Assembly: GCA_026387795.1 (NCBI GenBank)
Contig: JAPLLA010000053.1
Coordinates: forward strand, 1 to 43,768
Origin: Candidatus Saganbacteria bacterium
GTDB taxonomy: Bacteria > Margulisbacteria > WOR-1 > JAPLLA01
Direction of reading: 5' to 3'
Length of the DNA stretch: 43,768 bases
Shown here: in pieces, positions 17,190 to 43,330 of the stretch
Layout of the letters: the number at the start of each line of letters is the position of its first letter
How positions within the stretch are numbered: the stretch's first letter is position 1
Made by a program: the position numbers and the translations under genes
The notes under the pieces: generated by a model
Seen by the model: the letters and a program-made list of their open reading frames with translations, nothing else
Told to the model about the DNA's origin: nothing
Database searches by the model: none

Positions 17190-17217
17190 TGAAATTTTTA
17201 CCATAAAGAAGCGATAG
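17190..17217 (+). promoter_or_regulatory. Sigma-28-like promoter element, copy 1
   Basis: TGAAATTT (17190-17197), 12-nt spacer, AGCGATAG (17210-17217), 40 nt before the ATG at 17257 of the histidine-kinase-type gene. It matches the elements at 22116, 38365, 41966 and 43303 in both boxes and in exact spacing. Confidence 0.55.
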
Positions 17218-17256
17218 TAAAGATGTAAGAATCAATAAATGGTTAGGAGTGGAAAA

Positions 17257-18501
17257 ATGGGAGAAGTATCTGCTGCTAGACAACTGAAGGCAATCGCTAG
17301 GGAAGCGGACCGGCAGGCGCTGGCATATGGTCAAAAGATTCGTGCGCAGTTTGGGAAGTTGCCTGTTAAAGAACAAATTCAGGGTTTAGCGCAACTAGTC
17401 AAAGAATATAAAAAAGGGGTATACGGTGTTGAAGGGCGGCTTTTCGAATTATATAGGGAAAATTATGCGGGTAGACAAAAACCAGGGGAGCTAGACTGGC
17501 AGTCAATAATGCTTGACCTTGTGAACCATGATTTGGCGCATTTGAGGGATCATATTTCTGGTCAGCTTGCATATGGGGCAAAGAAGAGGGGGAGCGAACC
17601 AATAGATTTTAAAATACAGCAAGCAGTAGGAGAGTTAGTAAAACGTAGCGGTGAATATTTGGTTTTTGCCAATTATCCTTTACGGATTATAGCAACACTG
17701 GCAGCCCAGCAGGAGTGTTTAGCTCCTGCTTATGCGCATTTTAGCCTAGAAAAGATGTTTGAATTAATCGCTTTGAGTGGTTTTTTTCGGTCGCTTGTAG
17801 AGGGAACCTGGAATACTAATTTTCAGGTTGGAACATACAGCAAAGAAAAAGCGGCTGACCCTGCTTATGCAGGGATATTGACCCATCTTGAGCCAGGGTT
17901 GAAATTAAAAACAATTGAACCGTATGTAGTTTCCATTTTTTATAACCTGATAAAAAATGCATTCAAAATCATGCTCTGGGATCCAGATGGAGAACCTGTG
18001 CCTGGAGCAAAGGTTGTAGTTTCAGCTTTGACCCATCCAACCTATCCTTCCGTGGCAGTGGTTGAAGTGATTGATAACGGGCCAGGGTTTGATCTAAGGA
18101 CAATTTCACAGCAAGCACTTCGCATTAAGACGTCCTCACCTGGATCTGTTGGTTTATCAGCAGAGATTCAGGATGCTATAGAGCGGCTGAACGGGTCGCC
18201 TTATGCATATTCGATTGATGTTAATGAATTAATGCGTTTGGTTTTTCTCTATCGGTTAACTGCTAGTGCCGGGGGAGGGCTTGGATCGGGTTTAGGGTTG
18301 TATGGGGCAAACCAGCTTTCAACGCAGCTCCATGGAAGTTATGTGGTGGGTATGAATCACCAGAAAACAGAACCTTTTACTACTGGAGCGCGTTTTATGT
18401 TTTTCTTGCCCAAAGATCCCTATGCTTTTATGCCGGACCTTTCTCTGTTGACCAAAGATGTTCAGTATGGAGCATTGGAAACGCCAATTTTTAGGGGATA
18501 G
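17257..18501 (+). CDS. Soluble histidine-kinase-type ATPase (HATPase_c)
   Basis: A 414-aa cytoplasmic protein with a GHKL/HATPase_c domain: N-box FYNLIKNAFKIM (about residues 230-245), G1 box EVIDNGPGFD, and G2 box GSGLGLYGANQL. An upstream helix contains LVNHDLAHLRDHI (about residue 90), which looks like a dimerisation/phosphoacceptor H-box. There is no signal peptide, membrane helix or recognisable sensor domain, and no response regulator nearby, so the partner is unknown. ATG 17257 (MGEVSAARQL) has AGGAG 7 nt upstream and is preferred to ATG 17239. It is first in an operon with the two module-repeat proteins, behind promoter copy 1. A non-kinase GHKL ATPase remains possible. Confidence 0.75.
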   Translation: MGEVSAARQLKAIAREADRQALAYGQKIRAQFGKLPVKEQIQGLAQLVKEYKKGVYGVEGRLFELYRENYAGRQKPGELDWQSIMLDLVNHDLAHLRDHISGQLAYGAKKRGSEPIDFKIQQAVGELVKRSGEYLVFANYPLRIIATLAAQQECLAPAYAHFSLEKMFELIALSGFFRSLVEGTWNTNFQVGTYSKEKAADPAYAGILTHLEPGLKLKTIEPYVVSIFYNLIKNAFKIMLWDPDGEPVPGAKVVVSALTHPTYPSVAVVEVIDNGPGFDLRTISQQALRIKTSSPGSVGLSAEIQDAIERLNGSPYAYSIDVNELMRLVFLYRLTASAGGGLGSGLGLYGANQLSTQLHGSYVVGMNHQKTEPFTTGARFMFFLPKDPYAFMPDLSLLTKDVQYGALETPIFRG

Positions 18502-18542
18502 AAATTATCCGGTTTACCAATTTTCAGCAATGAGGTTTTATT

Positions 18543-19409
18543 ATGGGAACAAGAGCAGTAGGACAATTGGACATAATGCTTGCGCAGGCAAGGAGTCTTT
18601 TGCCGATGAATGCAAAAGCAAAAAAAGCAAGGGGATTGGCGTGCCTTTTGGAAATACGCCGCATAGCACCAGAAAATCCCGCTGCTTTTGCACTAGCCAA
18701 AGTTTATTTCCTGGAATTCGCTTCTATTGCAAGGCAACGTAGAGAGTGGGGGGAAGAGGCAGAAGCCCGCAGTGCTTGTGAACAAGCGCTTTCAATCCCT
18801 TTTACTAGAGCGGAGTTAGGGAGAGATATTCAAATTGATGGAGCAATAACAGCAATGGAAGAGATGTACGGTGCGCAAAGAAAAATAGCTCCTAGTGTTC
18901 CGTATACGCCGGTAGTTGCTCCTCCAGTAGCTCCAGCAAAAACTGCACATTCTTCTCAAGCTCCTTGTATGCCATCCGCAGTTTTAGCCCCTTCTGACTC
19001 TGATCAGGGTCTCAGTGAGATTGCAGTTTTTTGTAATGCTTATTTAAGTATGTTGCGCAGGGATTTTCCTTTTTTGAATGAGCCTCTCAAGGAAGGTCGT
19101 ATTAAAAGGGTTGGACATGGAGATGAAAAGCGAGTTGTTAGAGCAGCAAGACGATTGGAACAGCGGCTACAAGTTATACGGTTTTTAAGAGGTCATTCGG
19201 AGATGAAGAGTGCGGGCATAAAACACAGTAATCGTCCAATATTTAGTTTGATTACTGGTCAGGAGGAATATAGGGTGTTTGGAAAAAGAGCGGCTACTGC
19301 TTTTCTTGAAGCAAGGGTTGCCGCAGGACTTGAACACAACCCTGCAGCTTTAGAACGGATTAAAACTGCGATACGAGAAGAATATGAGGCAGCAGTAGCT
19401 AAGGAGTAA
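18543..19409 (+). CDS. Unknown protein with one copy of an RDYPFL/FSLITG module
   Basis: A 288-aa protein not recognised as a known family. Residues 1-110 are helical; 115-155 form a Pro/Ala/Ser linker; from about 160 to the end it is one module: CNAYLSMLRRDFPFLNEP, an Arg-rich helix (RAARRLEQRLQVIRFLRGH), PIFSLITGQEEYRVFG and FLEARVAAGLEHNPAALERIK. This module is close to the last part of the next protein (residues about 755-885), so the two genes are paralogous there. It follows the HATPase gene by 41 nt and precedes the next gene by 8 nt. No signal peptide or catalytic motif is visible. Confidence 0.7.
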   Translation: MGTRAVGQLDIMLAQARSLLPMNAKAKKARGLACLLEIRRIAPENPAAFALAKVYFLEFASIARQRREWGEEAEARSACEQALSIPFTRAELGRDIQIDGAITAMEEMYGAQRKIAPSVPYTPVVAPPVAPAKTAHSSQAPCMPSAVLAPSDSDQGLSEIAVFCNAYLSMLRRDFPFLNEPLKEGRIKRVGHGDEKRVVRAARRLEQRLQVIRFLRGHSEMKSAGIKHSNRPIFSLITGQEEYRVFGKRAATAFLEARVAAGLEHNPAALERIKTAIREEYEAAVAKE

Positions 19410-19417
19410 TCACGACA

Positions 19418-22081
19418 ATGTTTGAGCTTAGTAGAAGGGTTTGTTTTTATAGGGATGGAGGATCTTCTCCTTCAAAGCCTGTGGCACCAAGGAGAATTAT
19501 TGTAAGGCTTCAAGCGCCAGTGGTTCAGCCTGTGCCTGCGTCAAAACCATCTGCATTGTCTTCTGCAGCAGCAAAAGCAGCGGAAAGAGCAGATCGGAAA
19601 AGATTAACAGCAGAAACAGGCAGAATGGAAAGACTGATGGAAATGGGAAGGCACATCCTTGAAAAAAAAGATCTTACTGTAGCGGATCTTGATATGGCTT
19701 TGGGTATTTTTGCCAGGGTCTACAGAGACGATCCTTCTCATGTGGAAGCAGCCAGAGCAGTTGTGGATATCTTTTACCGTGAAACAGGATTAGCTGCGGA
19801 AGTGTTTACGGCTGACGATGTGGAAGTACCGGGTTTAACTCCTCCGCAAAAAGCATCAATAGTTACTGCTTCCAGAAGTTTATATGTGGCCAGAATTTTA
19901 TCCGAGATTCCTCCCGCACAAATGACCGAAGAAGGGATTCGCAGCGCAGCACCGGAAATCGTACCTTTTATTTTTGGCATACCAGAAAAGCCTGTTCCAG
20001 ATGGATTGGCCGCAGCACTGGAATTTATGTATTTGTGTTATCCGGAAACGCGACCCGTAGTAAAAAAGAGGGCGGGGGGGGGAGAGGAAGGAGCGGATTT
20101 GCGGTTGATTGTAAAAAGGGTTGAGATTGGAGAGGCATTATTAGAAGCAGCAAGGAAGAGTTTTGATGCGGGGCGATATGCAGAAGCAGCAGAAGGGTTT
20201 AGCCATGTTTTACCATTGGAACCTGGTAATGTAGAAGCTCTTTGCTCTTTCCATTTAAGCGCACTTAGAAGAGATTATCCTTTTTTGGTGGGTGCAGAAC
20301 CCGAAGTTACTATGCACCGTCCGGTAAGAAGGGTAGAACATTTACTCTTGGCAAAGCTGGAAGGAGTCAGGGTAAAGCCTCGAACAGCAGGAAGTAGAGA
20401 AATTGAAAGGATAGAAAGGGAAGTGGCACAAGCCAGAGAGGTTAGGTCTTTAGAAGAATTGGTTGCCAGCGGAGAGTTGTTTGCAAAACCTATTGCAGAA
20501 ATTAATCGTCCTGGCCGTTTAGAGCTTGAAATTCAAGCCCAAAAAGATGAACTACTAGTAACAGCAAGAGAGTGTTTTGAACGTGGTGAATATGCGCAGG
20601 CAGCAGAAGCATTTTACTCTGCACTGGAATTGGACCCTGTTGACGGAGAAATGTTTTTTAGGTTTCATCTAAGTGCATTACGCAGAGACTATCCTTTTTT
20701 GCTAAATCGTGAGGAGAGAAATATTGAACAGATCAGGGTTTTTCTTTTGGAAGAGAGATTTGAAAAAACATTAAAAGTAATTCCGTTTTTAAGGGAAAGG
20801 CCGGCAGTTTCTATTGATGAGATCAGGGCCGGAAAAGAAGGAGATCCTCTTTGTGCGGAAATTTTGCGTTATGTGGATCACAGGGCTTGCTCTAGGGTGG
20901 TAGGGAATTTTTATGATGCGCAGGTTGTTTCAGGTGTGGTTTTAGATTTAGAAGCTTGGGATCAGTTCAAAGTAGAGATAGAAGCAGAAGCAGCTTCTCT
21001 TGCAAATGTATTATCCCTAGAAAAATGTCATGAGAAACATGCGGTGCTGGCAGAAGCAATGGAATGTTTTGGAAGGGCTGAATATGAGCAGGCAGAGAAT
21101 GTTTTTGGCAGAGTGCTGGAGATTGACCCCAACGATATTTGGGTTCTTTGCCATCTGCTTATTTGTAGGATGGAACAGGCAAATGTGCTATTTCCCGAAA
21201 ACGGGGCCAAGAGTGTTCAAAATAAAGGGACTGCAATAGTGCGGGTTTTGAAGCATAGTATACAAGTACTGGATTTTATAAGAGCACATCCATTGTACAG
21301 TACAACAGAAATACTTGAAGCAGATAGTGTGGTTTTTAATTTAATTACAGGGGGTTCCGAACGAAGCATGTTTTCATGCATTTCTGATGCAAGGGTATGT
21401 GCGGGTGTAATTTATGATCCCACGGTGCTGGAAAGTATGAAAATGCATATCCAGGAGAGAGTTGCTAGTACCCGTAACGAGATTACAACATATGTTCTAC
21501 CTATGCCTGTTCCAAAAGAGCGTCAGGCGCGTACTTTTACTCCTGTTCCACCACTTCCGGCTGATATTAAAACCCGAAAAGATGCTTTGGTAGCAGAAGC
21601 TCAAATGGCATTTAGGGAAAAAAGATATGCAGAAGCTGTTGCTTCTTTTCACTCTGCAGCTGAACTGGATCCCAATGATATTGAAGTTTTCTGTAATGTT
21701 TATGTAAGTATTCTGCATCGGGATTATCCATTTTTGGATGTGCCCCCTAGAGAAGGGTGGGGTAAGAGAATCGGACGTGGTTATGAAATGCGATTTTTTA
21801 GGGCAGAGCGAAGATTGAGGCAGAGGCTGGAAGTAATCCGGTTTTTGGGTAGTCATGCAGGTATGAGATATGTGGATTTAAGAAAAGAGGGTGGACCAAT
21901 ATTTAGTTTAATTGTTGGTCAAGAGACTTTTCGGGTGTTTGGAAATGGAGATGCTCCTGCTTTTCTTGAAGCAATGGTAGCTGCAGGACAGCATTATGAT
22001 CCAGCAATTATTGCAGGGATAAAAGAGGATATTGTTAAAGAATATAGAGCTGCTACAGGTGAAGCTAGAGACGAAGCGTAA
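19418..22081 (+). CDS. Unknown large repeat protein: four TPR-plus-RDYPFL modules
   Basis: An 887-aa protein of unknown function. After a Pro/Ala-rich start (1-65) and a helical region, a unit recurs four times: a TPR-like helix pair (ARECFERGEYAQAAEAFYSA and relatives) followed by a module whose start is LRRDYPFL near residues 283 and 421, a degenerate copy near 585, and LHRDYPFL near 766. Fuller copies continue through an Arg-rich helix, an FNLITG or FSLIVG motif and a DPxxLExxK helix. Copy 4 is nearly the same as the module in the preceding protein; copy 1 lacks the second half. AAGGAG at 19401 overlaps the upstream stop. The architecture suggests a binding scaffold, perhaps partnered with the HATPase. 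Confidence 0.7.
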   Translation: MFELSRRVCFYRDGGSSPSKPVAPRRIIVRLQAPVVQPVPASKPSALSSAAAKAAERADRKRLTAETGRMERLMEMGRHILEKKDLTVADLDMALGIFARVYRDDPSHVEAARAVVDIFYRETGLAAEVFTADDVEVPGLTPPQKASIVTASRSLYVARILSEIPPAQMTEEGIRSAAPEIVPFIFGIPEKPVPDGLAAALEFMYLCYPETRPVVKKRAGGGEEGADLRLIVKRVEIGEALLEAARKSFDAGRYAEAAEGFSHVLPLEPGNVEALCSFHLSALRRDYPFLVGAEPEVTMHRPVRRVEHLLLAKLEGVRVKPRTAGSREIERIEREVAQAREVRSLEELVASGELFAKPIAEINRPGRLELEIQAQKDELLVTARECFERGEYAQAAEAFYSALELDPVDGEMFFRFHLSALRRDYPFLLNREERNIEQIRVFLLEERFEKTLKVIPFLRERPAVSIDEIRAGKEGDPLCAEILRYVDHRACSRVVGNFYDAQVVSGVVLDLEAWDQFKVEIEAEAASLANVLSLEKCHEKHAVLAEAMECFGRAEYEQAENVFGRVLEIDPNDIWVLCHLLICRMEQANVLFPENGAKSVQNKGTAIVRVLKHSIQVLDFIRAHPLYSTTEILEADSVVFNLITGGSERSMFSCISDARVCAGVIYDPTVLESMKMHIQERVASTRNEITTYVLPMPVPKERQARTFTPVPPLPADIKTRKDALVAEAQMAFREKRYAEAVASFHSAAELDPNDIEVFCNVYVSILHRDYPFLDVPPREGWGKRIGRGYEMRFFRAERRLRQRLEVIRFLGSHAGMRYVDLRKEGGPIFSLIVGQETFRVFGNGDAPAFLEAMVAAGQHYDPAIIAGIKEDIVKEYRAATGEARDEA

Positions 22082-22115
22082 GTTGCGCCTCTTTTTCCTC
22101 TTTCCTCTTTCTAAG

Positions 22116-22143
22116 TGGGATTTACAGCGCATTTTAACGATAG
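22116..22143 (+). promoter_or_regulatory. Sigma-28-like promoter element, copy 2
   Basis: TGGGATTT (22116-22123), 12-nt spacer, AACGATAG (22136-22143), 24 nt before the ATG at 22168. Two substitutions from copy 1 in the first box; the spacing is the same. Confidence 0.5.
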
Positions 22144-22167
22144 ATATATAGGGGGAATAATATTTCC

Positions 22168-23148
22168 ATGCAAGCAGAAAGAGTATGTTGTGCAAGGCAT
22201 CCTGAATTTGTGTATCCGCATTTTGCAAAGGCACAAGCGCCAACTAATGGGGTTTTTAAAGAAACTCCTCCGCCCGGGACCACCCATTATTACCGCGGAA
22301 TGAAGGACGAAAGGGATTTACCCTGCTTATTAAAGGAAAGGTATCAAATTGGTCCGCATGATACAGATCCTGTTGCAGCATCAGGATACAATCAGACTGT
22401 CATGGGCTTTTGGTTTAATGGGGGAGAACATGAACACGCAACGGGTCATGATGAAGATCTTTATCCTATGGCATCAGGGCTTACTCCTGAGCATTTAGAT
22501 TTTAGATCAAAAGTGGTAATGGTTAGAAGATTTGGCTTGGATCCAACTACTTCTGCATGGAGACCGCATTTAGGGACAGAATGGAATAGGGCTTTTACTG
22601 AATTAAGAGACAATCCTGCGGTTTCAACCATGTTACAAGCAGAAGATCTTTTGGGGGGATTAGGTGTATCCAAGGATGTCATCTTCCCGTTTCTTGCTCA
22701 CTTGGATCCAAAAACCGTAATTGATGATTTAAAGTTTATCCAGGCACAACTGGGTGCACTAAGATTAACCGCTTCTGAGGAAGAACTTAGTCCGGAAAAT
22801 CCCAAGTTATATTCTCCTGAACGCCCTCTATTTGAAAGGGAACAGCAGGCAAGGCGCTTTAAAGATGAAATTGCAATAACTGCTTTTCTACCAGTACCGG
22901 AAACACCCGGTACAACGGTTACTGTAAATCGTGTTAACTTAGAAAGAGTAAGGCTATTGCTCCAGGAATTGTCTTGTAAGCCAGATCAAGCTACATTATA
23001 TAGACTGTTATCAAATAATCCTTCATTAGTAGAGTTTTTTAAGTCTTATTTAGAAAAGCCAGAACCCATGTTAGCAAGACCGGGTTTCCCGCTTCCAGAT
23101 GCATATGCCTTTGCATTGCCGGTACACACTTACAAATCTAACCTCTAA
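22168..23148 (+). CDS. Orphan protein of unknown function
   Basis: A 326-aa soluble protein that I do not recognise. It has a His/Tyr/Gly-rich first third ([33 protein letters not shown]), a helical middle ([22 protein letters not shown]) and a Pro-rich end. The [10 protein letters not shown] cluster could bind metal but matches no motif I can name. There is no signal peptide or membrane segment. AGGGGGA lies about 12 nt before ATG 22168, and promoter copy 2 sits just upstream, separating it from the preceding operon. glyQ follows 38 nt later behind its own promoter. Confidence 0.65.
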
Positions 23149-23149
23149 G

Positions 23150-23179
23150 TTGCGGTCTTCCCCTTTTTTGTGTTAGTAT
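23150..23179 (+). promoter_or_regulatory. Probable glyQ housekeeping promoter, leaderless
   Basis: TTGCGG (23150-23155), 18-nt spacer, TAGTAT (23174-23179), then 7 nt to the ATG of glyQ. No Shine-Dalgarno sequence precedes the ATG, so the mRNA may begin at the start codon. Confidence 0.45.
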
Positions 23180-23186
23180 TTCCTTA

Positions 23187-24071
23187 ATGGCAAAAAAGAT
23201 CTTAACCTTCCAGGAAATTATTGCGAATCTAAATAATTTCTGGGCAAAACAAGGATGCATTATTCAGCAGCCTTATGATATGGAAAAAGGTGCAGGGACC
23301 ATGAATCCTGCAACCTTCTTCCGTGTTTTAGGCCCAGAGCCTTTTAATGTTGGCTACGTTGAACCATCCCGCAGGCCCACAGATGGCCGCTACGGTGAAA
23401 ACCCAAACCGCCTCTCCCATTATTATCAATATCAAGTGATCCTTAAGCCTTCTCCTTTGGAAGTCCAAGATATCTATCTTGATAGTTTAAGAGTGCTGGG
23501 AATAGATCCAGCTAAGCACGATGTCCGTTTTGTGGAAGACAACTGGGAATCTCCAACCTTGGGAGCAAGCGGTGTGGGCTGGGAGGTGTGGGCAGAGGGT
23601 ATGGAAATTACTCAGTTTACCTATTTCCAGCAATGCGGGGGATTGGAACTAAAACCGATCAGCGTAGAAATTACTTACGGTTTGGAACGGATCGCTATGT
23701 TTATCCAAAATGTAAAAAGTGTTTTTGATTTGCAGTGGAACGATAAAATTAAATATGGCGACGTCCACCTTCAATCAGAAAAAGAGCATTCCAAATATAA
23801 TTTTGAGCTGGCAAATGTTGAGATGCTTTTAAATCTTTTTAATCAATTCGAAAAAGAGTCTTTAGCGATTATTGAACAAAAACTTCCTTTGCCTGCATAC
23901 GATTATGTCTTGAAGTGCTCACATACTTTCAATCTCCTTGATGCTAGGGGAGCGGTTTCTGTTACAGAGAGGATGGCGTACATCTTAAGGATCCGCAAGC
24001 TGGCACAAAGGTGCGCGAAGCTTTATTTGGAGAGCAGAGAAGAGCAAGGATTTCCCTTATTAAAACGTTAA
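23187..24071 (+). CDS. glyQ: Glycyl-tRNA synthetase alpha subunit
   Basis: Catalytic subunit of the bacterial alpha2beta2 glycyl-tRNA synthetase, charging tRNA-Gly. The 294-aa product has the full-length class II core typical of Gly[31 protein letters not shown] near the N terminus, [19 protein letters not shown] (motif 2 region), [21 protein letters not shown] and [15 protein letters not shown]. It is preceded by a probable leaderless promoter and followed after 19 nt by glyS, its partner subunit. Confidence 0.97.
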
Positions 24072-26249: not shown

Positions 26250-26277
26250 GCAACTTTTTTGTCTTTAAACTCGATAA
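26250..26277 (+). promoter_or_regulatory. Weak sigma-28-like element, possible copy 3
   Basis: GCAACTTT (26250-26257), 12-nt spacer, CTCGATAA (26270-26277), 24 nt before ATG 26302. The -10 half matches well; the upstream half matches 5 of 8 positions of TGAAATTT. Confidence 0.35.
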
Positions 26278-30373: not shown

Positions 30374-30375
30374 AA

Positions 30376-32003: not shown

Positions 32004-33032
32004 ATGAAAAGAATGACCTATAAAGAAGCGGGTGTGGATATTGAAGCGGGTTACGAGGTTTTAAAACGCGTCAAAAAGCTTGGCCGCGGTTTTAAAAAAG
32101 ACCGTTTTATCGGCGGGATTGGCGGTTTTGGCGGAGCATATTCCCTAAAAGGATTCAATTATAAAGAGCCGGTTTTGGTTTCCGGGATGGATGGGGTAGG
32201 GACCAAAATTAAATTGGCTTTTATGATGAATAAACACGATACCATTGGGATTGATTTGGTAGCCATGAATGTGGATGATGTGGTGGTGTGCGGAGCAAAA
32301 CCTCTTTTCTTTTTAGACTATATTGCCTGCCACAAAGTAGAACCGGATGTGATCGAAGATATCCTAAAAGGGATTGTAGCAGGTTGTAAACAAGCCGGGT
32401 GTTTACTGGTAGGAGGGGAAACCGCAGAGATGAGTGACCTCTATTCGGAAGGGGAATATGATTTGGCTGGGGTGGCGGTAGGCATTGCAGACCGGAAAAA
32501 GCTTTTAGATAGAAAAAACATAAAAGTTGGGGATCAATTGATTGGACTTGCTTCTTCAGGCCTGCATAGCAATGGATACACATTGGCGCGTAAAGTGTTA
32601 CTTGATGTAGCGGGGCTGGAACTTGGAGATAAAGTAGACGGGTTAAAGCGTACGCTTGGGGAAGAGCTTTTGGAGCCAACGCGTATTTATGCTGGTATTA
32701 TTGTAAAATTCTTGGAAAAATTTCATCCGCGGGTGATTAGCCATATTACAGGAGGAGGATTTCCTGAAAACATTGGAAGGTTACTTCCGCAAGGCTTTGG
32801 AGTGGTGGTTCAAAAAGGTACTTGGCCCATTCCTCCTATTTTTGGTTTTTTCTAGAAACTTGGTAATGTGGAAGAAAAAGAGATGTATAAGGTATTTAAC
32901 ATGGGGATTGGGATGGTCTTGGTAGTACCCAAAAAAGAAGTATCTGCCATGCTTAAATTTCTTAAGCAAAACAAGGAAAAGGCGTTTGTAATCGGAGAAA
33001 TAGTTAAGGGAAATGGAGTGAAAATAGTTTAA
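32004..33032 (+). CDS. purM: Phosphoribosylformylglycinamidine cyclo-ligase, interrupted by in-frame TAG
   Basis: Fifth step of purine synthesis (FGAM to AIR). The N-terminal 283 codons are clearly PurM: FGGAYSLKG, VSGMDGVGTKIKLA, GIDLVAMNVDDVVVCGAKPLFFLDYIA, GGETAEMSDLYSEGEYDLAG and SHITGGGFPENIGRLLP. At 32853-32855 an in-frame TAG occurs where the family usually has Gln (IFxxLQxxGNV). The same frame continues with KLGNVEEKEMYKVFNMGIGM to TAA at 33032, completing a normal 342-residue PurM. A single CAG to TAG change explains it: nonsense mutation, sequence error or readthrough. TAG is used as an ordinary stop elsewhere (HIT gene, aldolase), so general recoding is unlikely. Confidence 0.88.
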
Positions 33033-35393: not shown

Positions 35394-36721
35394 TGAAAAA
35401 ACCTTGTTTTTGGAAACCTGAGGCTGAATGCCTCGGTTTCCAAAATAGTTACTTAGAGATGAATGAGGAAACCGCCCCGGTTCACCGGGGCAGGTTTCCG
35501 AAATATTCTTTTGTTTTCTCTGTATTATTTATTATGCTGGGATTGTTATTGGCTGTTTCTGCTTCTGCAGAAATAGTTACTACTACTTTAGTTCAAAACA
35601 ATGCTTCTTCTTCCATGAAAACCAACTTTACCAATGGACTGAGTATTGGTTATGTCAAAGATGGCACCCAGGAAGTAGGGATTGTTTCTTGGCAGCCGGA
35701 TCTTAAGTACGGTCCATTTGGAATGGGGATTAATTTTAATGTTCCGCTTGGAGACAAGCGGCCAACCGGTTTTCAGGAATTTGTTTTCCGGTATGTGGAA
35801 TATGACGATGCTATGCGTGGACTGCGTTACGGAGTATTAACCGATATTACGCTTGGTTCAGGGCTTTTGATGGACAAATATTCTACTTTGGGCAATGCTT
35901 CTACTCTTTTAAACGGTACCCAGCTTGGTTTGAGAGGATATTATACTTTTGAAGATGTTATGAACCTGGAGTCTTTAAAGCTTTTTGGTATGCGTACTTA
36001 TTCCAATTTGTATGCGGTAAGGCTGGAAGAAAAGGTTTATCCATGGCTGATCCTTGGCCAAAGTTCTGTTTGGGATACGGATGGGACCACCATTAAAAAA
36101 CCGGATGGTACTTACCAGTCTTTTGCTCCTGAAAGCGGATATGGCTTGGATCTTACGATTCCTCTGATTTGGGATGCGGATTATTATTTGGAAGGAGCAA
36201 AGCTTGCCAACCATGGAGCAGGTGCTTCTACAGGGATCAAATGGATTAAAGATTATTTTGTGGCGGATTTTTCTTTTAATGTGGGACTCCGTTATATGGA
36301 ACGCAACTTTATCCCCGGATATTTTAACGAAGGATATGAAAACGACCCGATTGATATGGTGTCAGTTGAAGCACGCGGCGGTGGACCGCGTTCGGGTTAT
36401 TTTTTAGGATTAAATGGCCGTGCACTTGGGATGTTGGGTGTGGGAGTTGGCTTGGAAGGGTACAACAATGAACCCGGGGTATTGAATGCGGATGTGTGGG
36501 CAAATTTCCCTTTCGATATTTTTCTGGCAGGGTCTTACAAACAGCCTACGTTCAATGATTTTCGTTCTTTGAGTTTTGAACAAGGGGCCATTGCCGAAGG
36601 AAAGATCGGCTACAAAATCAACCCCAAAACCACCTTTATTACGCATTACAAAAGGGCATATAATAGGTTTTCGGGAACGGTCGAAGATTCTCAGTATTAC
36701 GAGTTTCAAATTGCACTCTAA
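35393..36721 (+). CDS. Predicted outer-membrane beta-barrel protein of unknown function
   Basis: A 442-aa exported protein: signal helix FVFSVLFIMLGLLLAVSASA ending in an AxA cleavage site, then a glycine/aromatic-rich beta protein with alternating strands (LRYGVLTDITLGSGLLMD, VADFSFNVGLRYMER, FLGLNGRALGMLGVGVGLEGY) and a final strand SQYYEFQIAL typical of barrel C termini. Family not recognised. The start is uncertain: ATG 35393 overlaps the purH stop, but the codons up to the signal peptide run through two palindromic hairpins (35410-35499); ATG 35459 would give a shorter N terminus. Its end overlaps the lipid kinase start (TAATG). Confidence 0.78.
   Translation: MKKPCFWKPEAECLGFQNSYLEMNEETAPVHRGRFPKYSFVFSVLFIMLGLLLAVSASAEIVTTTLVQNNASSSMKTNFTNGLSIGYVKDGTQEVGIVSWQPDLKYGPFGMGINFNVPLGDKRPTGFQEFVFRYVEYDDAMRGLRYGVLTDITLGSGLLMDKYSTLGNASTLLNGTQLGLRGYYTFEDVMNLESLKLFGMRTYSNLYAVRLEEKVYPWLILGQSSVWDTDGTTIKKPDGTYQSFAPESGYGLDLTIPLIWDADYYLEGAKLANHGAGASTGIKWIKDYFVADFSFNVGLRYMERNFIPGYFNEGYENDPIDMVSVEARGGGPRSGYFLGLNGRALGMLGVGVGLEGYNNEPGVLNADVWANFPFDIFLAGSYKQPTFNDFRSLSFEQGAIAEGKIGYKINPKTTFITHYKRAYNRFSGTVEDSQYYEFQIAL
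35410..35499. repeat. Inverted pair of GGAAACC bulged hairpins (REPIN-like), copy 2
   Basis: Hairpin c (35410-35443) is the exact reverse complement of hairpin b at 33098-33131 over all 34 nt. Hairpin d (35467-35499) has the same outer arms with inner stem GCCCCGG/CCGGGGC, loop TTCA and the single A bulge in the same place as b. They are 23 nt apart in opposite orientation and lie in the 5' coding or leader region of the barrel gene. Confidence 0.88.
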
Positions 36722-37647
36722 TGAAGCCTAAACCTTATTTTATTGTTAATCCGCATTCTGCGGGAGGAAAAACTGCCAAGCGCTGGCCGGGGATTAAGGC
36801 ATGTTTTGAATCTGCGATAGGGTCGATTGATTTTGATTTTACCAAAGGGAACATCCACGCTTCTTATCTTACCGGCAAAGCACTCTATGATGGATATAAA
36901 AAGATTATTGCAGTAGGTGGAGATGGAACGCTTAACGAAGTTTTGAACGGGTTTTACGATGCGGACAAAAAAATAGTAGAAGATGCAGTGTTGGGATATT
37001 ATCCCAGCGGCACTGGCCAGGATTTTTCCCAGACTGTAGGCATTGATCATGATTCCATAGAAAAACATGTGGAGCGGTTGCTGGGAGATCGGCATTGGCA
37101 GATAGATGTTGGGCAAGTCACTTTTTGCAAAGCAGACGGTACAGTTACTACGCGCAAGTTTATAAATGAATCAAGCCTTGGTTTTGCGGCTGCCGTAGCA
37201 AAAAGGACCAGTCATCCTTCCAAGCTTTTGGGTGCCAAGCCGACTTATATTTTAGGCATTCTTAGATCTCTCTTTTTTATTCAGCACCATCACTTAAACA
37301 TAGAAGTAGATGGAAGGAATTTTCACCAGGGCCGCTCTTTAATTGTTACAATGTCTAACGGTCGTTTTTTTGGCGGGAGCCTCATGATTGCGCCTCACGC
37401 AGAGATTGACGACGGGCTTTTAGAAGTAATAGCAGTAGGAGACATGGGCCGTATCGAGGTCTTGGCAAATATCCGAGGGATTTATTCGGGCAAGCATCTT
37501 ATGAACCCCAAAGTTAAGTATACTCGCGGAAAAGAGATCCGGATTAATTCAGATGAAGAAGTTTGGATTGAGATGGATGGAGAGATTGTGGGAATGGTCG
37601 AGGCTATTTTTAGGGTTTTACCGAAAGAGATAGGGTTTATATTGTAA
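36721..37647 (+). CDS. Diacylglycerol kinase-family lipid kinase (YegS/BmrU-like)
   Basis: A 308-aa cytoplasmic lipid kinase of the DAGK catalytic-domain family. The nucleotide-binding region has FIVNPHSAGGKTAK at residues 7-20 and the signature IAVGGDGTLNEVLNGF, then GYYPSGTGQDFSQTVGI and ISNESSLGF-type segment FINESSLGFAAAVAK. The beta-sandwich C-terminal half includes SNGRFFGGSLMIAPHAEIDDGLLEV and VWIEMDGEIVG. The true lipid (diacylglycerol, undecaprenol, sphingosine-like) cannot be read from sequence. Start ATG overlaps the barrel gene stop; the gene ends facing tsaC across a long inverted repeat. Confidence 0.92.
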   Translation: MKPKPYFIVNPHSAGGKTAKRWPGIKACFESAIGSIDFDFTKGNIHASYLTGKALYDGYKKIIAVGGDGTLNEVLNGFYDADKKIVEDAVLGYYPSGTGQDFSQTVGIDHDSIEKHVERLLGDRHWQIDVGQVTFCKADGTVTTRKFINESSLGFAAAVAKRTSHPSKLLGAKPTYILGILRSLFFIQHHHLNIEVDGRNFHQGRSLIVTMSNGRFFGGSLMIAPHAEIDDGLLEVIAVGDMGRIEVLANIRGIYSGKHLMNPKVKYTRGKEIRINSDEEVWIEMDGEIVGMVEAIFRVLPKEIGFIL

Positions 37648-37649
37648 GA

Positions 37650-37773
37650 GTTGTGTGTTGTGAGTAGTGTGTTGTGGGTCGAGTTTTGAGTTGTGAGGGT
37701 GAGGAGAAAATTATATCCCCATAACCCATCCCCACAACCCGCCCCACAACCCAAAACCCACAACTCACAACAT
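37650..37773. repeat. Long GT/AC-rich inverted repeat between convergent genes
   Basis: The left half (37650-37706) consists of TTGTGAGT, GTGTTGTGGG and TTGAGTTGTGAGGG units; the right half (37719-37771) of CCCATAACCC, CCCCACAACCC and CACAACTCACAAC, so the halves pair into a long imperfect hairpin. It fills the gap between the lipid kinase and tsaC and could act as a bidirectional terminator. Confidence 0.75.
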
Positions 37774-37776
37774 TTT

Positions 37777-38328
37777 TTATATCACTAGGCTTCCCTGTCT
37801 CAATATCTTATAAGGCTCTTCAGTAACATCTACTACAGTTGATGCAATTCCAATTGTTGCCTTGCCTCCATCCAGTATCAAATCTATATCTGGAAAAATC
37901 CTTGCAACCTCGTCAGCAGTCAAAGCATCTGGTTGTCCGGAGAGATTTGCGGAAGTAGCAGCAATTGGTCCGGTTTCTTTTAGGAGTTTTTGTAGTAGTG
38001 GATAGTTGGGCATGCGTATGCCGACTTTGCCGGTCCCGTCTTTTTTGTAAAAGATCAAAGTCAAAGGTCCGGGCCAGTATTTAATGAGTTCACATTTCTG
38101 GGGCTCGATTAGATTTTTTAATTGCTCAAAGTCTGCGATAAGAATTTGCAGAGGCTTATTAAATTCTCGTCCTTTTAATTGATAGATTTTTTTTATCGCT
38201 TCCGCATTTTTAAAGTCAATCCCAATGCCGTAAACGGTTTCTGTAGGGAAAGCAATGATGCTTCCTTGTGAAAGAGCCTTTTTGGCTGTTTCAATGCTTT
38301 TTTCTTGAAAAACCAGTTTCTTTGGCAT
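37777..38328 (-). CDS. tsaC: Threonylcarbamoyl-AMP synthase (TsaC/Sua5/YrdC)
   Basis: Makes threonylcarbamoyl-AMP from Thr, bicarbonate and ATP for t6A37 modification of ANN-decoding tRNAs. 183 aa, the single-domain length. YrdC-fold motifs: ALSQGSIIAFPTETVYGIGIDF, IYQLKGREFNKPLQILI (KxR..KPL), YWPGPLTLIF, VGIRMPNYP and GPIAATSANLSGQPDA, ending VDVTEEPYKILRQGSL. ATG 38328 is preferred over an upstream in-frame start because the fold begins here and TATATT lies 6 nt before it, implying a leaderless mRNA. Divergent from tal. Confidence 0.94.
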   Translation of the reverse strand: MPKKLVFQEKSIETAKKALSQGSIIAFPTETVYGIGIDFKNAEAIKKIYQLKGREFNKPLQILIADFEQLKNLIEPQKCELIKYWPGPLTLIFYKKDGTGKVGIRMPNYPLLQKLLKETGPIAATSANLSGQPDALTADEVARIFPDIDLILDGGKATIGIASTVVDVTEEPYKILRQGSLVI

Positions 38329-38340
38329 GTAGATAATATA
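38329..38340 (-). promoter_or_regulatory. -10 box giving a probable leaderless tsaC mRNA
   Basis: TATATT on the minus strand at 38340-38335 followed by 6 nt and the ATG. It has the same geometry as the zinc-ribbon gene at 17156. No Shine-Dalgarno sequence and no clear -35 are visible. Confidence 0.5.
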
Positions 38341-38364
38341 CAGCAAAAAAAAATCACAAAAAAG

Positions 38365-38392
38365 TGAAATTTTTGAAAATAAGAGGCGATAA
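38365..38392 (+). promoter_or_regulatory. Sigma-28-like promoter element, copy 4
   Basis: TGAAATTT (38365-38372), 12-nt spacer, GGCGATAA (38385-38392), 30 nt before the tal ATG. Nearly identical to the copy before fba: TGAAATTTTTGAAAA is shared in full. Confidence 0.65.
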
Positions 38393-38422
38393 AGAGTCGA
38401 GAAGATCAAGGAGGGAAAAATC

Positions 38423-39541
38423 ATGACTATGGCAAGATTGACGGGGATTACAGGTCCGGATTTTAGGGCTCAATTAAAAAAGGGAGGAAAACCCGACCCA
38501 GCGCATGCTGCTGACAGGTTATTTATGTTCGGTCCAGGGACAGTCCATACTTGTGCAGATACATCAGTAGCAGCTGAGGTAAGAAGAATTCAGGAACAAT
38601 TAAAAATGCTGGATCCTAATGCAAAGTTAGGTAAAGGGACCACAAATCCTACTTTGTTGAAACAATATATTGAAAAAAGAGGGCCGCAAGCCATATTGCA
38701 GGATTTGTTCTGTTTTGAAAATAGGCTTGATCCAAGTGCTCCAATTGATATAGCAGCTTTTGCTGTTTTTAAAAGAGATGCTGCCCAAGGTTCAGCCCAG
38801 GCTTATCTTCATAGAGTTAAAACTATGGTTTATTCCCAGTTATTAAATGCTCTGGAAGGAGCTCCATTATCAGCTGAAGTGGATTATGTCCCCGGAACAA
38901 CTACTGCTGATGATATTGTGAGCCAAGCAGTTGATATTGCTAGAATTGCCCCTGAACACATAGTTGTAAAAGTGCCGGTAGCAGGTCCTGCGGAAGTTGA
39001 AGTGATCCGGGTACTGGAAAATGACTATGGAATTCGGGTTAACGCAACTTTAGTTTTTACCCAACAGCAAGCCCTTGATGTTGCTCATGCAGACGCAACT
39101 TTTATCAGCCCTTTTGCAGGCAGGGTAGATGACCATATGGCAGGACTTGCAAAAACTAGAGGCGGGCAAGAAGCTGTTACCACTAGAGTTTTAAGTACAG
39201 GGATGGATTTTGTCCAATCAGTTGTTGCTCAGCTTGGTTATCAAGGACTAAGCTCAATGGTTATACCAGCCAGTGTTCGGGGAGTGTGGAAGCAAACTGG
39301 TGCGCCTACCGATCACTTGGAGCGGATTTACGCAATGTCGTTAAGTGCTTCTGCTCCGCTGGTCCCGACTATTCCAACTAGCGTAATTTTGGATCCCAAA
39401 AGTGCAGAAATGCTCTGGTTGTTCCATCAATCAACTCAAAACAGGGGATATTCTCATCCTTTACTTGCGTCAGGACTCGCCGGGTTTGATAAAGATGGGA
39501 CTGCATGGCAGGAAGTAGCGTTAAAAGGGTTAGAAGGATAG
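38423..39541 (+). CDS. tal: Transaldolase
   Basis: Transfers a dihydroxyacetone unit between sugar phosphates in the pentose phosphate pathway. 372 aa with transaldolase landmarks: GKGTTNPTLLKQYIEKRG (about 70-87), LSAEVDYV, the Schiff-base lysine at about residue 183 (EHIVVKVPVAG), and GIRVNATLVFTQQQAL then ATFISPFAGRVDDH. It is divergent from E. coli TalB, with an extended C terminus (LLASGLAGFDKDGTAWQEV). AAGGAGGG lies 7 nt before ATG 38423. It stands behind a strong copy of the shared promoter element and is followed by a terminator before pgk. Confidence 0.87.
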   Translation: MTMARLTGITGPDFRAQLKKGGKPDPAHAADRLFMFGPGTVHTCADTSVAAEVRRIQEQLKMLDPNAKLGKGTTNPTLLKQYIEKRGPQAILQDLFCFENRLDPSAPIDIAAFAVFKRDAAQGSAQAYLHRVKTMVYSQLLNALEGAPLSAEVDYVPGTTTADDIVSQAVDIARIAPEHIVVKVPVAGPAEVEVIRVLENDYGIRVNATLVFTQQQALDVAHADATFISPFAGRVDDHMAGLAKTRGGQEAVTTRVLSTGMDFVQSVVAQLGYQGLSSMVIPASVRGVWKQTGAPTDHLERIYAMSLSASAPLVPTIPTSVILDPKSAEMLWLFHQSTQNRGYSHPLLASGLAGFDKDGTAWQEVALKGLEG

Positions 39542-39567
39542 TTTGGATTCTTGATCGATAAGTAAAC

Positions 39568-39608
39568 AAAAGCCAGAGAGCTCCAAAGAGTTCTTTGGCT
39601 TTTTTGTT
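39568..39608 (+). terminator. Rho-independent terminator after tal
   Basis: Stem of 16 pairs including two G-U pairs: AAAAGCCAGAGAGCTC (39568-39583), loop CAAA, GAGTTCTTTGGCTTTT, then a T run. Only 25 nt separate it from the pgk ATG, so pgk must be expressed by readthrough or the hairpin acts as an attenuator. Confidence 0.85.
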
Positions 39609-39633
39609 TTATTTAAGAGAGGAGTTGAGAAAA

Positions 39634-41013
39634 ATGGTTGGAGGATTGGGTCCCCTGGGACCAGGGAGCGGAGTTCGGTATGCGGCTTCTGGAACTGAGA
39701 CAGGATGTAAGGTGGTAGTGGCCTCTTCATTTAACAAACAGACGATTCGTGACATTGGAAACCAATTTAGAGGAAAGAAGGTTTTAATCCGGGTTGATTT
39801 TAACGGCACAGCCAAAGACGGGAAAACAAAATCAACTGGTAGGATCGATGCAGCGCTTGAAACTATCCAATATGTTTTAGATCAAGGTGCAGCACAGGTT
39901 ATTTTGATTTCTCATAATGGCAGGAATAAAGATATAGCCAAAGATGGGGCAGAGGTTTATTCCCTTGCTCCAGTGGCTTCCGCGCTTCAGGAAAGATTGA
40001 GTGCACAAATTGATCGGGTTGATTTTGTTTCCAGTTGCACTGCCCCTGTAACTTCAACTGCACGAGTAGTTTTAATGGAAAACACGCGGGTAGATGCCAG
40101 AGATGAAAAAGGTGATATTACTTATGCACAGGAAATTTTAGCAGCAGTCAGTCCGGACATTTATGTTTTAGATGGTTTTAGCGTTGCGCATCGCGACCAG
40201 GCTTCTGTAACTTTGCTGGCGCGTTTGATGAAAGATCAAGGAAAACCTGCAGTAGCAGGTGCGCTCCTAGCCAGGGAATACGAATTTTTTATAGACCGGG
40301 TTATAAAAAATCCCGCAAAACCATTTCTTGTATTTTTGGGTGGTTCAAAAGTTGGGGGAAAGGGAGGGAAGCTTCCTATTCTCACTGCGCTTTTGCCGGA
40401 AGTTGACAGGTTGGTGGTTGGAGGAGCAATGGCGTTTCCGTTTCTTTTGGCACAAGGTTTGGCTGTTGCTGAAATGGATCCGTTTAAAACTAAACCTGGG
40501 CGTAATGAGGAATTGGCAGAAGAGGTTAGACAAGCCAGAGCGATTTTAGAAGGGCCATATGGGTATAAGGTTTTGGTCCCTACTCAGGTAGTAGGTGTAG
40601 ATAAAAGCGAGATCGATGTTAGAACCACTGCAGTTCCTGCTGGTTTTGTAATGAGAGACAGCTTGATTTCTGGGCTTATGCCCCAGCTTAGTGTTGTTTC
40701 TTATGGAACGATCTTTTTTAACGGTACCTTTGGTGCGTACGAAGAAGATTTAGGGGGGCACGTAAAAGGTACGCACGAGGTTTTTGCTTTTATGGCCAGA
40801 GCTATTGCTACAGGAGCCATGACTATTCCTGGGGGAGGAGATACTGCGGAGGTTCTGAAAGGATTTAAAAAGACACCCGACGGCAATGGTGTCAAATTTG
40901 GGCATGAAACTACGGGTGGAGGTGCAAGCGGGGATCTTATTACACTTGGCTTTGCAGGACGTGCAGAAGAATTGGCTGGGTTCGCATGTTTAACGGATAG
41001 AATGGCTGCTTAA
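39634..41013 (+). CDS. pgk: Divergent phosphoglycerate kinase
   Basis: Glycolytic/gluconeogenic interconversion of 1,3-bisphosphoglycerate and 3-phosphoglycerate with ATP. ATG 39634 with GAGAGGAG about 10 nt upstream gives 459 aa, some 60 longer than usual, with a Gly-rich N-terminal extension of about 45 residues. Substrate and nucleotide residues are recognisable: KVLIRVDFNG, ILISHNGR, LMENTR, VAHRDQAS, FLGGSKVGGK, FFNGTFGAYEED, IPGGGDTAEVL and TTGGGASGDLI. Many surrounding consensus positions differ (SHLGRP to SHNGRN, DAFGTAHR to DGFSVAHR, NGPMGVFE to NGTFGAYE). It forms an operon with the TPI gene 19 nt downstream. Confidence 0.88.
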   Translation: MVGGLGPLGPGSGVRYAASGTETGCKVVVASSFNKQTIRDIGNQFRGKKVLIRVDFNGTAKDGKTKSTGRIDAALETIQYVLDQGAAQVILISHNGRNKDIAKDGAEVYSLAPVASALQERLSAQIDRVDFVSSCTAPVTSTARVVLMENTRVDARDEKGDITYAQEILAAVSPDIYVLDGFSVAHRDQASVTLLARLMKDQGKPAVAGALLAREYEFFIDRVIKNPAKPFLVFLGGSKVGGKGGKLPILTALLPEVDRLVVGGAMAFPFLLAQGLAVAEMDPFKTKPGRNEELAEEVRQARAILEGPYGYKVLVPTQVVGVDKSEIDVRTTAVPAGFVMRDSLISGLMPQLSVVSYGTIFFNGTFGAYEEDLGGHVKGTHEVFAFMARAIATGAMTIPGGGDTAEVLKGFKKTPDGNGVKFGHETTGGGASGDLITLGFAGRAEELAGFACLTDRMAA

Positions 41014-41032
41014 TAGAAAGGACGGGATAAAA

Positions 41033-41947
41033 ATGGGAGAAGTATCATTAGGTTCGGTTCAAACAGCTTGGAGGGCAAAGGCAGGGCAAAGGGGTTATAA
41101 TTTTGGATTCAATTTAAAAACATTATTACCAAGGCATTTAGATGTTTTTATTTGGGCTCAAGGTGCCAAGGATAATAAGGTTGCTCCAAGAGAGGGATTA
41201 GCGGTTACTGCTTTTTTCCCGCCTGTACAGATTCATTCTGCTGATACGCAAAGATTATTTGAAGGGAATGTGGGAGTGCAGGAAATTCACTGGGATAAGC
41301 CCGGTTCTCATACTGGGGCAGCTCACGCAGAAACTGTATTGTCTGATTTCCCGAGAATAAATGCCGTATTAGTAAACCATTCGGAAGTAATTGGTGAACA
41401 TGGAAGAACACTGGAACAAGCAGCAGGACAGCTAAAACAAGCTCTGCGTACTACAGAAAGTGGCAGAACTTTTAAGTTTATTACCATTTGTGTTGGGGAA
41501 GACCGTGCTACCTATGACAAAGGGACAGAAGCAGCAGCGGCTTATGTTCAAAACCAAGTCAGAACAATCTTGACCTTGGCTGGAGTTACTGAAGAAGACA
41601 TGGCTAGGATTGGAATTGCTTATGAACCGCGGTTTGCTATTCAAGTTGGAGATGTACCAGGAGTTCCGCCAACAGATGCGCATATTGCAAAAATGGGTTG
41701 GGCAATTCTGCAAGCAGCTGCAGAAGCAGTAAGCGTAGAAGGAATGTCTCAGATGTTTGCTTTGCAATACGGCGGAAGCATGAAAGGTCCGGACGATAAA
41801 ACCGCACCGGTCCAGCGCTTTGTGGGTCCGGGAAATAGTGTAGATGCGGATTTATATAATGGCGGTTTAATTGGAACTGCAGCAAAAGATCCTAAAGTTG
41901 CAGCTGCCATTGTAAATAGGGTTGTTCCGGTTCCAGTACAAGCCTAA
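41033..41947 (+). CDS. tpiA: Divergent triosephosphate isomerase
   Basis: Interconverts glyceraldehyde 3-phosphate and dihydroxyacetone phosphate. 304 aa, about 50 longer than typical TPI. Catalytic residues are in place: Asn27 and Lys29 (FNLKT), His116 (VNHSE) and Glu198 (IAYEP), with CVGE and YGGSM. Departures: HSERR reads HSEVIG, the loop-6 motif WAIGTG reads FAIQVGDVPG, and the phosphate-binding end is NGGLIGTAA after an extra segment (TAPVQRFVGPGNSVDADLY). It begins MGEVS, with the same first 14 nt as the HATPase gene at 17257, probably chance. In an operon with pgk; fba follows behind its own promoter. Confidence 0.85.
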   Translation: MGEVSLGSVQTAWRAKAGQRGYNFGFNLKTLLPRHLDVFIWAQGAKDNKVAPREGLAVTAFFPPVQIHSADTQRLFEGNVGVQEIHWDKPGSHTGAAHAETVLSDFPRINAVLVNHSEVIGEHGRTLEQAAGQLKQALRTTESGRTFKFITICVGEDRATYDKGTEAAAAYVQNQVRTILTLAGVTEEDMARIGIAYEPRFAIQVGDVPGVPPTDAHIAKMGWAILQAAAEAVSVEGMSQMFALQYGGSMKGPDDKTAPVQRFVGPGNSVDADLYNGGLIGTAAKDPKVAAAIVNRVVPVPVQA

Positions 41948-41965
41948 AAAACATTTGTCAAAAAA

Positions 41966-41993
41966 TGAAATTTTTGAAAACAGGGTGCGATAA
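41966..41993 (+). promoter_or_regulatory. Sigma-28-like promoter element, copy 5
   Basis: TGAAATTT (41966-41973), 12-nt spacer, TGCGATAA (41986-41993), in the TPI-aldolase gap. The leader to the aldolase ATG would be about 110 nt, the longest of the set. Confidence 0.6.
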
Positions 41994-42037
41994 GTAGGCA
42001 GCGGAGACAAATATACATTATACAGAATAATAAGGGG

Positions 42038-42109
42038 GTGGGAAGAATACAAGAAAACTTATGCACTTATGACTTAAGACTTAAGCATTTAATTAAAGGA
42101 GGAAAATAA
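42038..42109 (+). CDS. Possible 23-residue leader peptide before fba
   Basis: GTG at 42038 (MGRIQENLCTYDLRLKH...) runs to TAA 1 nt before the aldolase ATG and ends across its ribosome site. TAAGGGG just upstream is a weak ribosome site. It could couple translation to fba or be chance; length and composition give no further support. Confidence 0.25.
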   Translation: MGRIQENLCTYDLRLKHLIKGGK

Positions 42110-42110
42110 A

Positions 42111-43208
42111 ATGGATTTTGCAGTATTAGCACCGTTATCAGCGCATCCAACCCTAGGAGCAAGGAAAAATGGTAGAAATATTAGAACTATGGGTTTTGGC
42201 GAAATGTATAGGGTTCCGGTTGAAAAAGGGAATTTTGCGGTAGTTGCTTTTAATGGCCGAAATGTTCCTTTGCCTATGCCAGGTGGTTATGAAGAAGGTT
42301 ATGTTGGGCCTTCAACAGTAACGCCGGTTTTAAAAGCAGCTAAAGTATTAGAAGCTCCGGTTATCATCGAAATCGCCAGTAGCGAACTAGGTAAACCAGG
42401 TAAGTCATATACAGGTGTTTTGTCGAGGCATGATTTTGATTTAAGAGCTGGTCTATCTGCTTTTGTTAACCATGTTTTTGCAGAATATCAGAGGCTAGAC
42501 ATGGCTGGTATCCCTATAGGTATTCATTACGATCATGGCGACAAATTCGATGTTGCTAAAGCATGCGTTGAGGCAGGTTTTACTTCAGTGGCTATGGATG
42601 GGGGCAAGATAGCAGATTTTGCAACTTTGAAAGCCGAAGCGCGTAAATGGGTAGAGCATTTCCACCCATTAGGGGTTGGGGTTGAAGGAGAGATTGAAAC
42701 TGTGGGAGGAGAAGAACCAACAGATCCGCAAAAAGCTGTTGAGTTTGCTAGTGCAACAGGAGTAGATGTGCTTGTGGTTACTTTAAGCAAAAATCCTCAT
42801 GGTGGAATGCCAGGTACTTCGGTGATGGAATCACCACGATTGGCAGCTGCAAGACAAGCATTGCCTCAAATGCCGGTGAATTTGCACGGCGGTTCCGGAT
42901 TTGGGTTAGAAGTATTAACAAGGGCTTCAATGCAAGGTTTGTTCCAAAAGCTGAATTATGCTACGGAATTATTTGAAGCTATCGTTGGTGCTGTACCTGG
43001 ATGGCCGCAAGTTTTAAAAATGGCAGCTGGAAAACCTCAGGGTTCGCGTATTAAGGATTCCCGCGATGCTTTAGCTATGACGGACTTTTTGCTAAAGCTT
43101 ATGCCAAAAGAGGTAGTTGAAGCTGCTGAGCAAGCTGCCTATGCAAAAGCATTCGCAGTAATGCGGGCAGTTGGGAATGAAGGAACTGCTAAATTCTATT
43201 CTGCTTAG
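42111..43208 (+). CDS. fba: Class II (metal-dependent) fructose-bisphosphate aldolase-like protein
   Basis: Cleaves or forms fructose 1,6-bisphosphate. 365 aa with a 40-residue N-terminal extension before the usual start (GNFAVVAFNGRN). Class II signature residues: IHYDHGDKFD (catalytic Asp141, zinc His142), TSVAMDGGK, VEGEIETVGGEEPTDPQKA (zinc Glu region about 192-202), LSKNPHGGMPG (zinc His230) and NLHGGSG (zinc His259). The phosphate motif KxNxDTD reads KLNYATEL, losing one Asp, so the exact substrate (FBP, tagatose-BP or another ketose) is open. AAAGGAGG lies 8 nt before ATG 42111. Followed by a strong terminator. Confidence 0.88.
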   Translation: MDFAVLAPLSAHPTLGARKNGRNIRTMGFGEMYRVPVEKGNFAVVAFNGRNVPLPMPGGYEEGYVGPSTVTPVLKAAKVLEAPVIIEIASSELGKPGKSYTGVLSRHDFDLRAGLSAFVNHVFAEYQRLDMAGIPIGIHYDHGDKFDVAKACVEAGFTSVAMDGGKIADFATLKAEARKWVEHFHPLGVGVEGEIETVGGEEPTDPQKAVEFASATGVDVLVVTLSKNPHGGMPGTSVMESPRLAAARQALPQMPVNLHGGSGFGLEVLTRASMQGLFQKLNYATELFEAIVGAVPGWPQVLKMAAGKPQGSRIKDSRDALAMTDFLLKLMPKEVVEAAEQAAYAKAFAVMRAVGNEGTAKFYSA

Positions 43209-43220
43209 TTAGTTTGTTTA

Positions 43221-43263
43221 AAGGGGCGCTTCTTGGGATTTTTCCTGAGAAGCCCCCTTTTTC
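43221..43263 (+). terminator. Rho-independent terminator after fba
   Basis: AAGGGGCGCTTCT pairs with AGAAGCCCCCTT (one mismatch), inner TGGGA/TCCTG pairs around a T loop, and a T run follows. It lies 12 nt after the aldolase stop. Confidence 0.88.
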
Positions 43264-43302
43264 TTGGATTAAATAAGAAGCAATAAAAAAGTATCTAAAA
43301 AC

Positions 43303-43330
43303 TGATTTTTTTTATTGTTTCTATCGATAA
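43303..43330 (+). promoter_or_regulatory. Sigma-28-like promoter element, copy 6
   Basis: TGATTTTT (43303-43310), 12-nt spacer, ATCGATAA (43323-43330), between the fba terminator and the last gene, 48 nt before its ATG. Confidence 0.5.

Follow-up and report, generated by a model that had tools for sequence, protein, structure and literature searches.

Which factor reads a short two-block element standing before orphan genes and divergent sugar-phosphate enzymes in contig JAPLLA010000053.1 of Candidatus Saganbacteria bacterium (assembly GCA_026387795.1), and is that element a promoter at all? The whole stretch analysed, here called the window, is 43,768 nucleotides (nt) long. Its host is a Saganbacteria (WOR-1) member of the Margulisiibacteriota, and relatives of the sigma gene discussed below are annotated as Saganbacteria, WOR-1 or Margulisiibacteriota. 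We consider it likely that the element, TGAAATTT-N14-CGATA(A/g), is the promoter of a redeployed alternative sigma factor descended from the FliA/WhiG (sigma-28) family, the best candidate being a protein of 212 amino acids (aa) encoded behind flhA.

Genome-wide counts were obtained by pattern searches of the 2.04-Mb assembly, and the sequence stretches around the sites were examined. We found 37 exact copies of the element and none of the reversed pattern used as a control; with up to two mismatches there were 167 matches against 43 in the controls. When the spacer was left free between 6 and 22 nt, N14 was found 37 times, N13 five times and no other value at all. A preliminary description of this DNA had placed the element always just before a gene on the same strand, and had predicted enrichment there across the genome. 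Both statements held, since 33 of the 37 exact sites are intergenic with the start of a same-strand open reading frame (ORF) 0-200 nt downstream, compared with 2.5% of random positions. The same placement was found for 50 of 62 one-mismatch sites, for all five N13 sites and, in the related genome G001, for 36 of 40 sites.

The logo of the sites reads aaG-TGAAATTT-N14-CGATA(A/g)-aaat, and the two bases preceding CGATA show a weak GC preference (G 31%, C 36%). A tract rich in A/T lies 12-19 nt before the element. Distances from element to start codon fall into two classes, 4-10 nt (n=20) and 15-40 nt (n=73), with only two cases at 11-14 nt. Such a gap is what one would predict if transcription started some 6-8 nt past CGATAA, giving mRNAs that are leaderless or else have a ribosome-binding site (RBS). 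Divergent pairs of elements some 50-70 nt apart were also observed in this genome (C58:3096-/3157+, C23:7270-/7333+, C24:8234-/8304+ and C50:68315-/68366+).

Strong conservation and divergent pairs, such as C58:3096-/3157+, would also be compatible with a repressor or activator site, or with a repeat. Nevertheless, a promoter would account for the strict orientation, the two blocks at fixed spacing, the short distance to the start, the A/T-rich tract upstream and the leaderless class, and we give the alternative hardly any credence. The element appears to be a real promoter, present in more than 100 copies in the genome.

Within the window, all positions on both strands were scored with a matrix derived from 87 further sites of this genome (table 1). 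Exact copies of TGAAATTT-N14-CGATAR occur only at 17190, 38365 and 41966. The sites at 38365, 41966, 17190, 22116 and 43303 hold ranks 1, 2, 3, 4 and 6, and the best score in the reversed window is 9.8 bits. Six sites had been listed in the preliminary description, of which these five stand, three as exact copies and two (22116 and 43303) as variants; the sixth, at 26250..26277 (+) and listed as a weaker copy, was rejected, having little in common with the element beyond CGATAA and scoring -0.7 bits (rank 18). Downstream of the variant at 43303 there are an RBS and an ATG (~43379), and the ORF continues past the window end. Matches with up to three mismatches are not above chance within the 44-kb window (13 against 15.8 expected), and the case for the element therefore rests on the whole genome. 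A scan for TATAAT/TTGACA before the window genes did not clearly separate those bearing the element from those free of it. On the minus strand, antisense to and inside the gene at 32004-32855, a match of the form TGAAATTT-N14-CAATAA (32698-32725, 15.9 bits) probably represents chance or an antisense promoter.

Table 1. Elements and neighbouring genes in the window, and sigma-related genes elsewhere
Feature	Position	Strand	Remarks
Exact element, TGAAATTT-N14-CGATAG	17190..17217	+	24.0 bits; precedes HATPase gene
HATPase_c protein (PF02518), first gene of operon	17257..18501	+	Start picked by RBS; ORF listing start 17239
288-aa protein, HATPase operon	18543..19409	+	No Pfam match
887-aa TPR protein, HATPase operon	19418..22081	+	
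Variant element, TGGGATTT-N14-CGATAG	22116..22143	+	16.3 bits; two mismatches
326-aa protein upstream of glyQ	22168..23148	+	No Pfam match
Exact element	38365..38392	+	29.3 bits, top window score
Divergent transaldolase/F6P-aldolase-family protein (PF00923)	38423..39541	+	N-terminal extension of ~49 aa
472-aa ORF between transaldolase and triosephosphate isomerase (TIM)	39595..41013	+	Probably one transcript with both, judged by position only
Divergent TIM-family protein (PF00121)	41033..41947	+	
Exact element	41966..41993	+	24.1 bits
Divergent class II fructose-bisphosphate aldolase-family protein (PF01116)	42111..43208	+	
Variant element, TGATTTTT-N14-CGATAA	43303..43330	+	13.8 bits; two mismatches
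212-aa short sigma behind flhA	C1:89609-90238 (same genome)	-	sigma2 + sigma4
Small conserved protein between flhA and short sigma	L003:1067-1465	-	Candidate regulator or anti-sigma
239-aa FliA/WhiG-family sigma, flgI-flgB-flgC-fliE-fliF cluster	L072:940-1650 (same genome, C34); also L122-L151		Recognition helix SRPKVCR

The element was present in all 30 sampled class-mates, with 2 to 65 exact copies each; seven genomes from other classes had 0-3. Each of the 17 class genomes checked has it immediately in front of rpoD. Among these, the host genome, G015 and G023 were assessed by translation and G013 by coordinates; in all of the other 13, a site with at most one mismatch was found between dnaG and rpoD, next to the rpoD RBS, the copy in G006 having a spacer of 15 nt. 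A comparison of G000 with G001 gave five matching genes, of which just three are close, and nearly all remaining genes behind the element are lineage-specific; besides rpoD, the two genomes have in common the sigma operon, a zinc-ribbon protein of 69 aa (67% identical) and an RNA-binding protein of the RRM type (79%). The conserved core of the putative regulon comprises rpoD, the sigma operon, the RRM protein and the zinc-ribbon protein. From these comparisons, the element seems to define a class-wide sigma-28-like promoter network, larger than first stated.

A sigma-28-family gene had been sought as the reader of the element, and the genome has two FliA/WhiG-like sigmas, of 212 aa (C1, behind flhA) and 239 aa (C34), in addition to RpoD (C2) and a sigma of the extracytoplasmic function (ECF) type (C36). 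Matches to Sigma70_r4 on C43 and C53 were rejected as sigmas, being short region 4 matches in frames of 94 and 79 aa that lack region 2. The best Protein Data Bank (PDB) matches of the 212-aa sigma are FliA and WhiG, with similarity in sigma2 and sigma4. There is no PF04539 match for sigma3, only about 40 residues separate regions 2 and 4, and the predicted structure places a single low-confidence helix between them; the lack of sigma3 fits the weak GC preference before CGATA. The recognition helix, SESQVSR, resembles the SESRVSQ of FliA. Both sigmas score under the cut-off of the NCBIfam model TIGR02479 (189.6 bits), with 82.4 bits for the 212-aa and 145.6 for the 239-aa protein.

The two-domain layout of the short sigma is ECF-like, it exceeds the cut-off of TIGR02937, ECF sigmas are among its weaker fold matches, and TGAAAT-N16-CGATA resembles the ECF promoter TGAAAC-N16-CGT, so that the element might be read as part of an ECF-type system. 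However, sigma4 of this protein is FliA/WhiG-like (region 4 scores 46.6 bits with PF04545, and 23.9 bits with the ECF-type PF08281, under its cut-off of 25.7), the CGATAA -10 and the TAAA-type flagellin promoters of sister classes indicate a sigma-28 ancestry, and the sole clear ECF gene found, on C36, has no link to any listed site. An ECF origin is, in our view, very improbable.

A closer competitor is the 239-aa protein, which has sigma2, sigma3 and sigma4, resembles FliA/WhiG over its full length (best PDB matches WhiG and FliA) and was found in 29 of 30 class genomes, G018 included; in that case, the short sigma would serve something else. Nevertheless, its recognition helix (SRPKVCR or SRSKVNR) is unlike that of FliA, and a good same-strand element stands directly upstream of its gene in none of 30 loci, compared with seven of 28 for the short sigma. 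In those seven class loci the element scores 12.6-32.3 bits upstream of the short sigma operon; elsewhere the best scores are mostly negative. In the host genome and in G001 an exact element is followed by a gene of 125-133 aa and then by the short sigma. A FlgM-type anti-sigma might be represented by a conserved protein of 130 aa, which matches no Pfam or NCBIfam family and precedes the short sigma in 14 of 28 class loci. We regard the 239-aa sigma as an unlikely reader of the element.

Several facts weigh against the 212-aa sigma as well. A second FliA/WhiG-family sigma exists in nearly all class genomes; G018, with the highest number of sites (65), has no detectable copy of the 212-aa sigma in its assembly; G028 (69% complete) has other genes after flhA; and in about 20 of 28 class genomes no good element lies directly upstream of the 212-aa sigma gene. 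The flhA of G018 lies ~650 nt from a contig end, and an assembly gap is a plausible explanation of the missing gene. As almost every class genome has both sigmas, their co-occurrence with site number cannot tell them apart. For this reason, and because of G018, we call the 212-aa sigma only the probable reader of the element.

The sister classes have a short sigma of 34-40% identity which, in G034, adjoins flhA (by translation). Flagellin (PF00669) had no match in any of 31 class genomes, the host included; of the seven sister-class genomes, three have it. Flagellar parts are found in the host (FlhA, FlgB and FlgI) and in the complete genome G002 (FliF, FliI, FliK, a FliM/FliN protein, FlgH and hook/rod proteins), and gene order suggests that FliPQR and FlhB also occur in the class. 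The flagellin promoters of three sister-class genomes read TAAA-N17-CGATAA (L275, L274) and TAAA-N17-CGAAAA (L276), the same geometry as (T)GAAA-N17-CGATAA of Saganbacteria. The simplest reading may be that the short sigma is the flagellar sigma of the phylum, with its -35 preference altered in Saganbacteria.

On the sequence-level record of element, spacing, placement, conservation, sigma inventory and flagellin absence, the following mechanism can be proposed. RNA polymerase carrying the 212-aa sigma would make its -35 contact with GAAAT and its -10 contact with CGATA, and would start transcription some 6-8 nt after CGATAA, producing leaderless or short-leader mRNAs. Targets activated by the sigma would be rpoD, in each class genome that was checked, its own operon, in a quarter of them, and over 100 further genes, mostly for lineage-specific soluble proteins. 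With the loss of flagellin in Saganbacteria, it may have been redeployed with a changed -35.

Directly downstream of elements we found genes for a ROK kinase, phosphofructokinase, transaldolase, class II aldolase, phosphoribosyl pyrophosphate synthetase, a glutamate-type dehydrogenase, proline dehydrogenase, a fusion resembling enzyme I and HPr of the phosphotransferase system, protein kinases and a LacI regulator; TIM is the third gene of the transaldolase group. Many other proteins downstream of elements have no Pfam match. The enzymes are divergent, with additional residues at the N-terminus: in phosphofructokinase the Pfam domain starts only at residue 94, and in proline dehydrogenase at 236. 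The regulon appears to encode mostly lineage-specific, fast-changing proteins, including divergent phosphofructokinase, transaldolase and aldolase. The proposal of an alternative-sigma regulon, unknown proteins included, is supported, but its link to central carbon enzymes seems to be lineage-specific, since the transaldolase has no full-length counterpart in 37 relatives, in which just two weak partial matches were found. An 820-aa fusion of mannose-1-phosphate guanylyltransferase-like and phosphoglucosamine/phosphomannomutase-like parts was also seen behind an exact element (L037:2523-4982, C60).

As a set, regulon proteins are basic and arginine-rich over their first ~30 residues (p ~2e-11 in G001, 6e-5 in G000 and 3e-3 in G013; p 8e-5 for single proteins from other class genomes). 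An N-terminal hydrophobic segment was found in 4 of 92 and 1 of 36 of them, compared with 18 of 71 and 38 of 80 in the comparison sets, the latter being enriched in membrane genes. These charge and hydrophobicity trends, picked after inspecting the data, are compatible with flagellar export and equally with proteins acting inside the cell. As a tentative idea, which we hold as rather doubtful, the flagellum might have become an apparatus without propeller (basal body and export gate, no flagellin) that exports a large and fast-evolving set of soluble proteins driven by the short sigma and bearing basic N-termini; on this view the divergent enzymes of sugar-phosphate metabolism would be exported and would have no housekeeping role.

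With these results, an uncultured bacterial class gains a large regulon defined by sequence together with a candidate regulator, in which a sigma-28 system seems to have been kept and expanded despite the loss of flagellin. The function of Saganbacteria orphan genes becomes testable through their common promoter and, unusually, their basic N-termini. Moreover, a phylum-wide short sigma devoid of domain 3, along with a -35 shift from TAAA to TGAAA, may offer a natural case of drift in promoter specificity.

Motility, sigma factors and secretion go unmentioned in the main genome paper on these lineages (PMC6349859). We found no description of the element or regulon in a search covering mostly papers available without subscription, and the papers found on sigma-28 without a flagellum concerned Chlamydia. 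Chlamydia is non-motile. There, too, sigma-28 is reported to be retained without a flagellum and to serve other genes (PMC10597470, PMC12282069); the present case differs in its more than 100 promoters, rpoD included, distributed class-wide in uncultured bacteria that keep basal-body genes. The ECF (group 4) sigmas are similar in having sigma2 and sigma4 without sigma3 and in self-activation, but here sigma4 and the -10 are FliA-like and no adjacent membrane anti-sigma was recognised. WhiG of Streptomyces is a FliA-family sigma for a non-motility programme. It is among the closest solved structures to the short sigma, but is full length with sigma3 and has no flagellar linkage.

A further close comparison is with FliA/SigD. 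The E. coli FliA consensus is TAAAGTTT-n11-GCCGATAA, with 17 nt between TAAA and CGATAA (PMC2859248). The likeness to FliA/WhiG claimed in the preliminary description stands for the CGATAA core; the extra spacer base does not, since aligning GAAA on TAAA gives 17 nt in both. The -10 core, the 17 nt separating it from an AAA-containing -35 core and a sigma gene adjoining flagellar export genes (here flhA) are common features. Unlike in FliA/SigD systems, TGAAATTT replaces TAAAGTTT (GAAA instead of TAAA), the GC extension is weak, the sigma lacks domain 3 and the regulon lacks flagellin; nearly every site precedes a gene, whereas in E. coli 30 of the 52 sites of FliA are intragenic (PMC4183435). 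A sigma-28-descended sigma for non-motility genes is already known in kind; what seems unusual here is the absence of domain 3, the control of rpoD and the loss of flagellin with an apparent expansion of the regulon.

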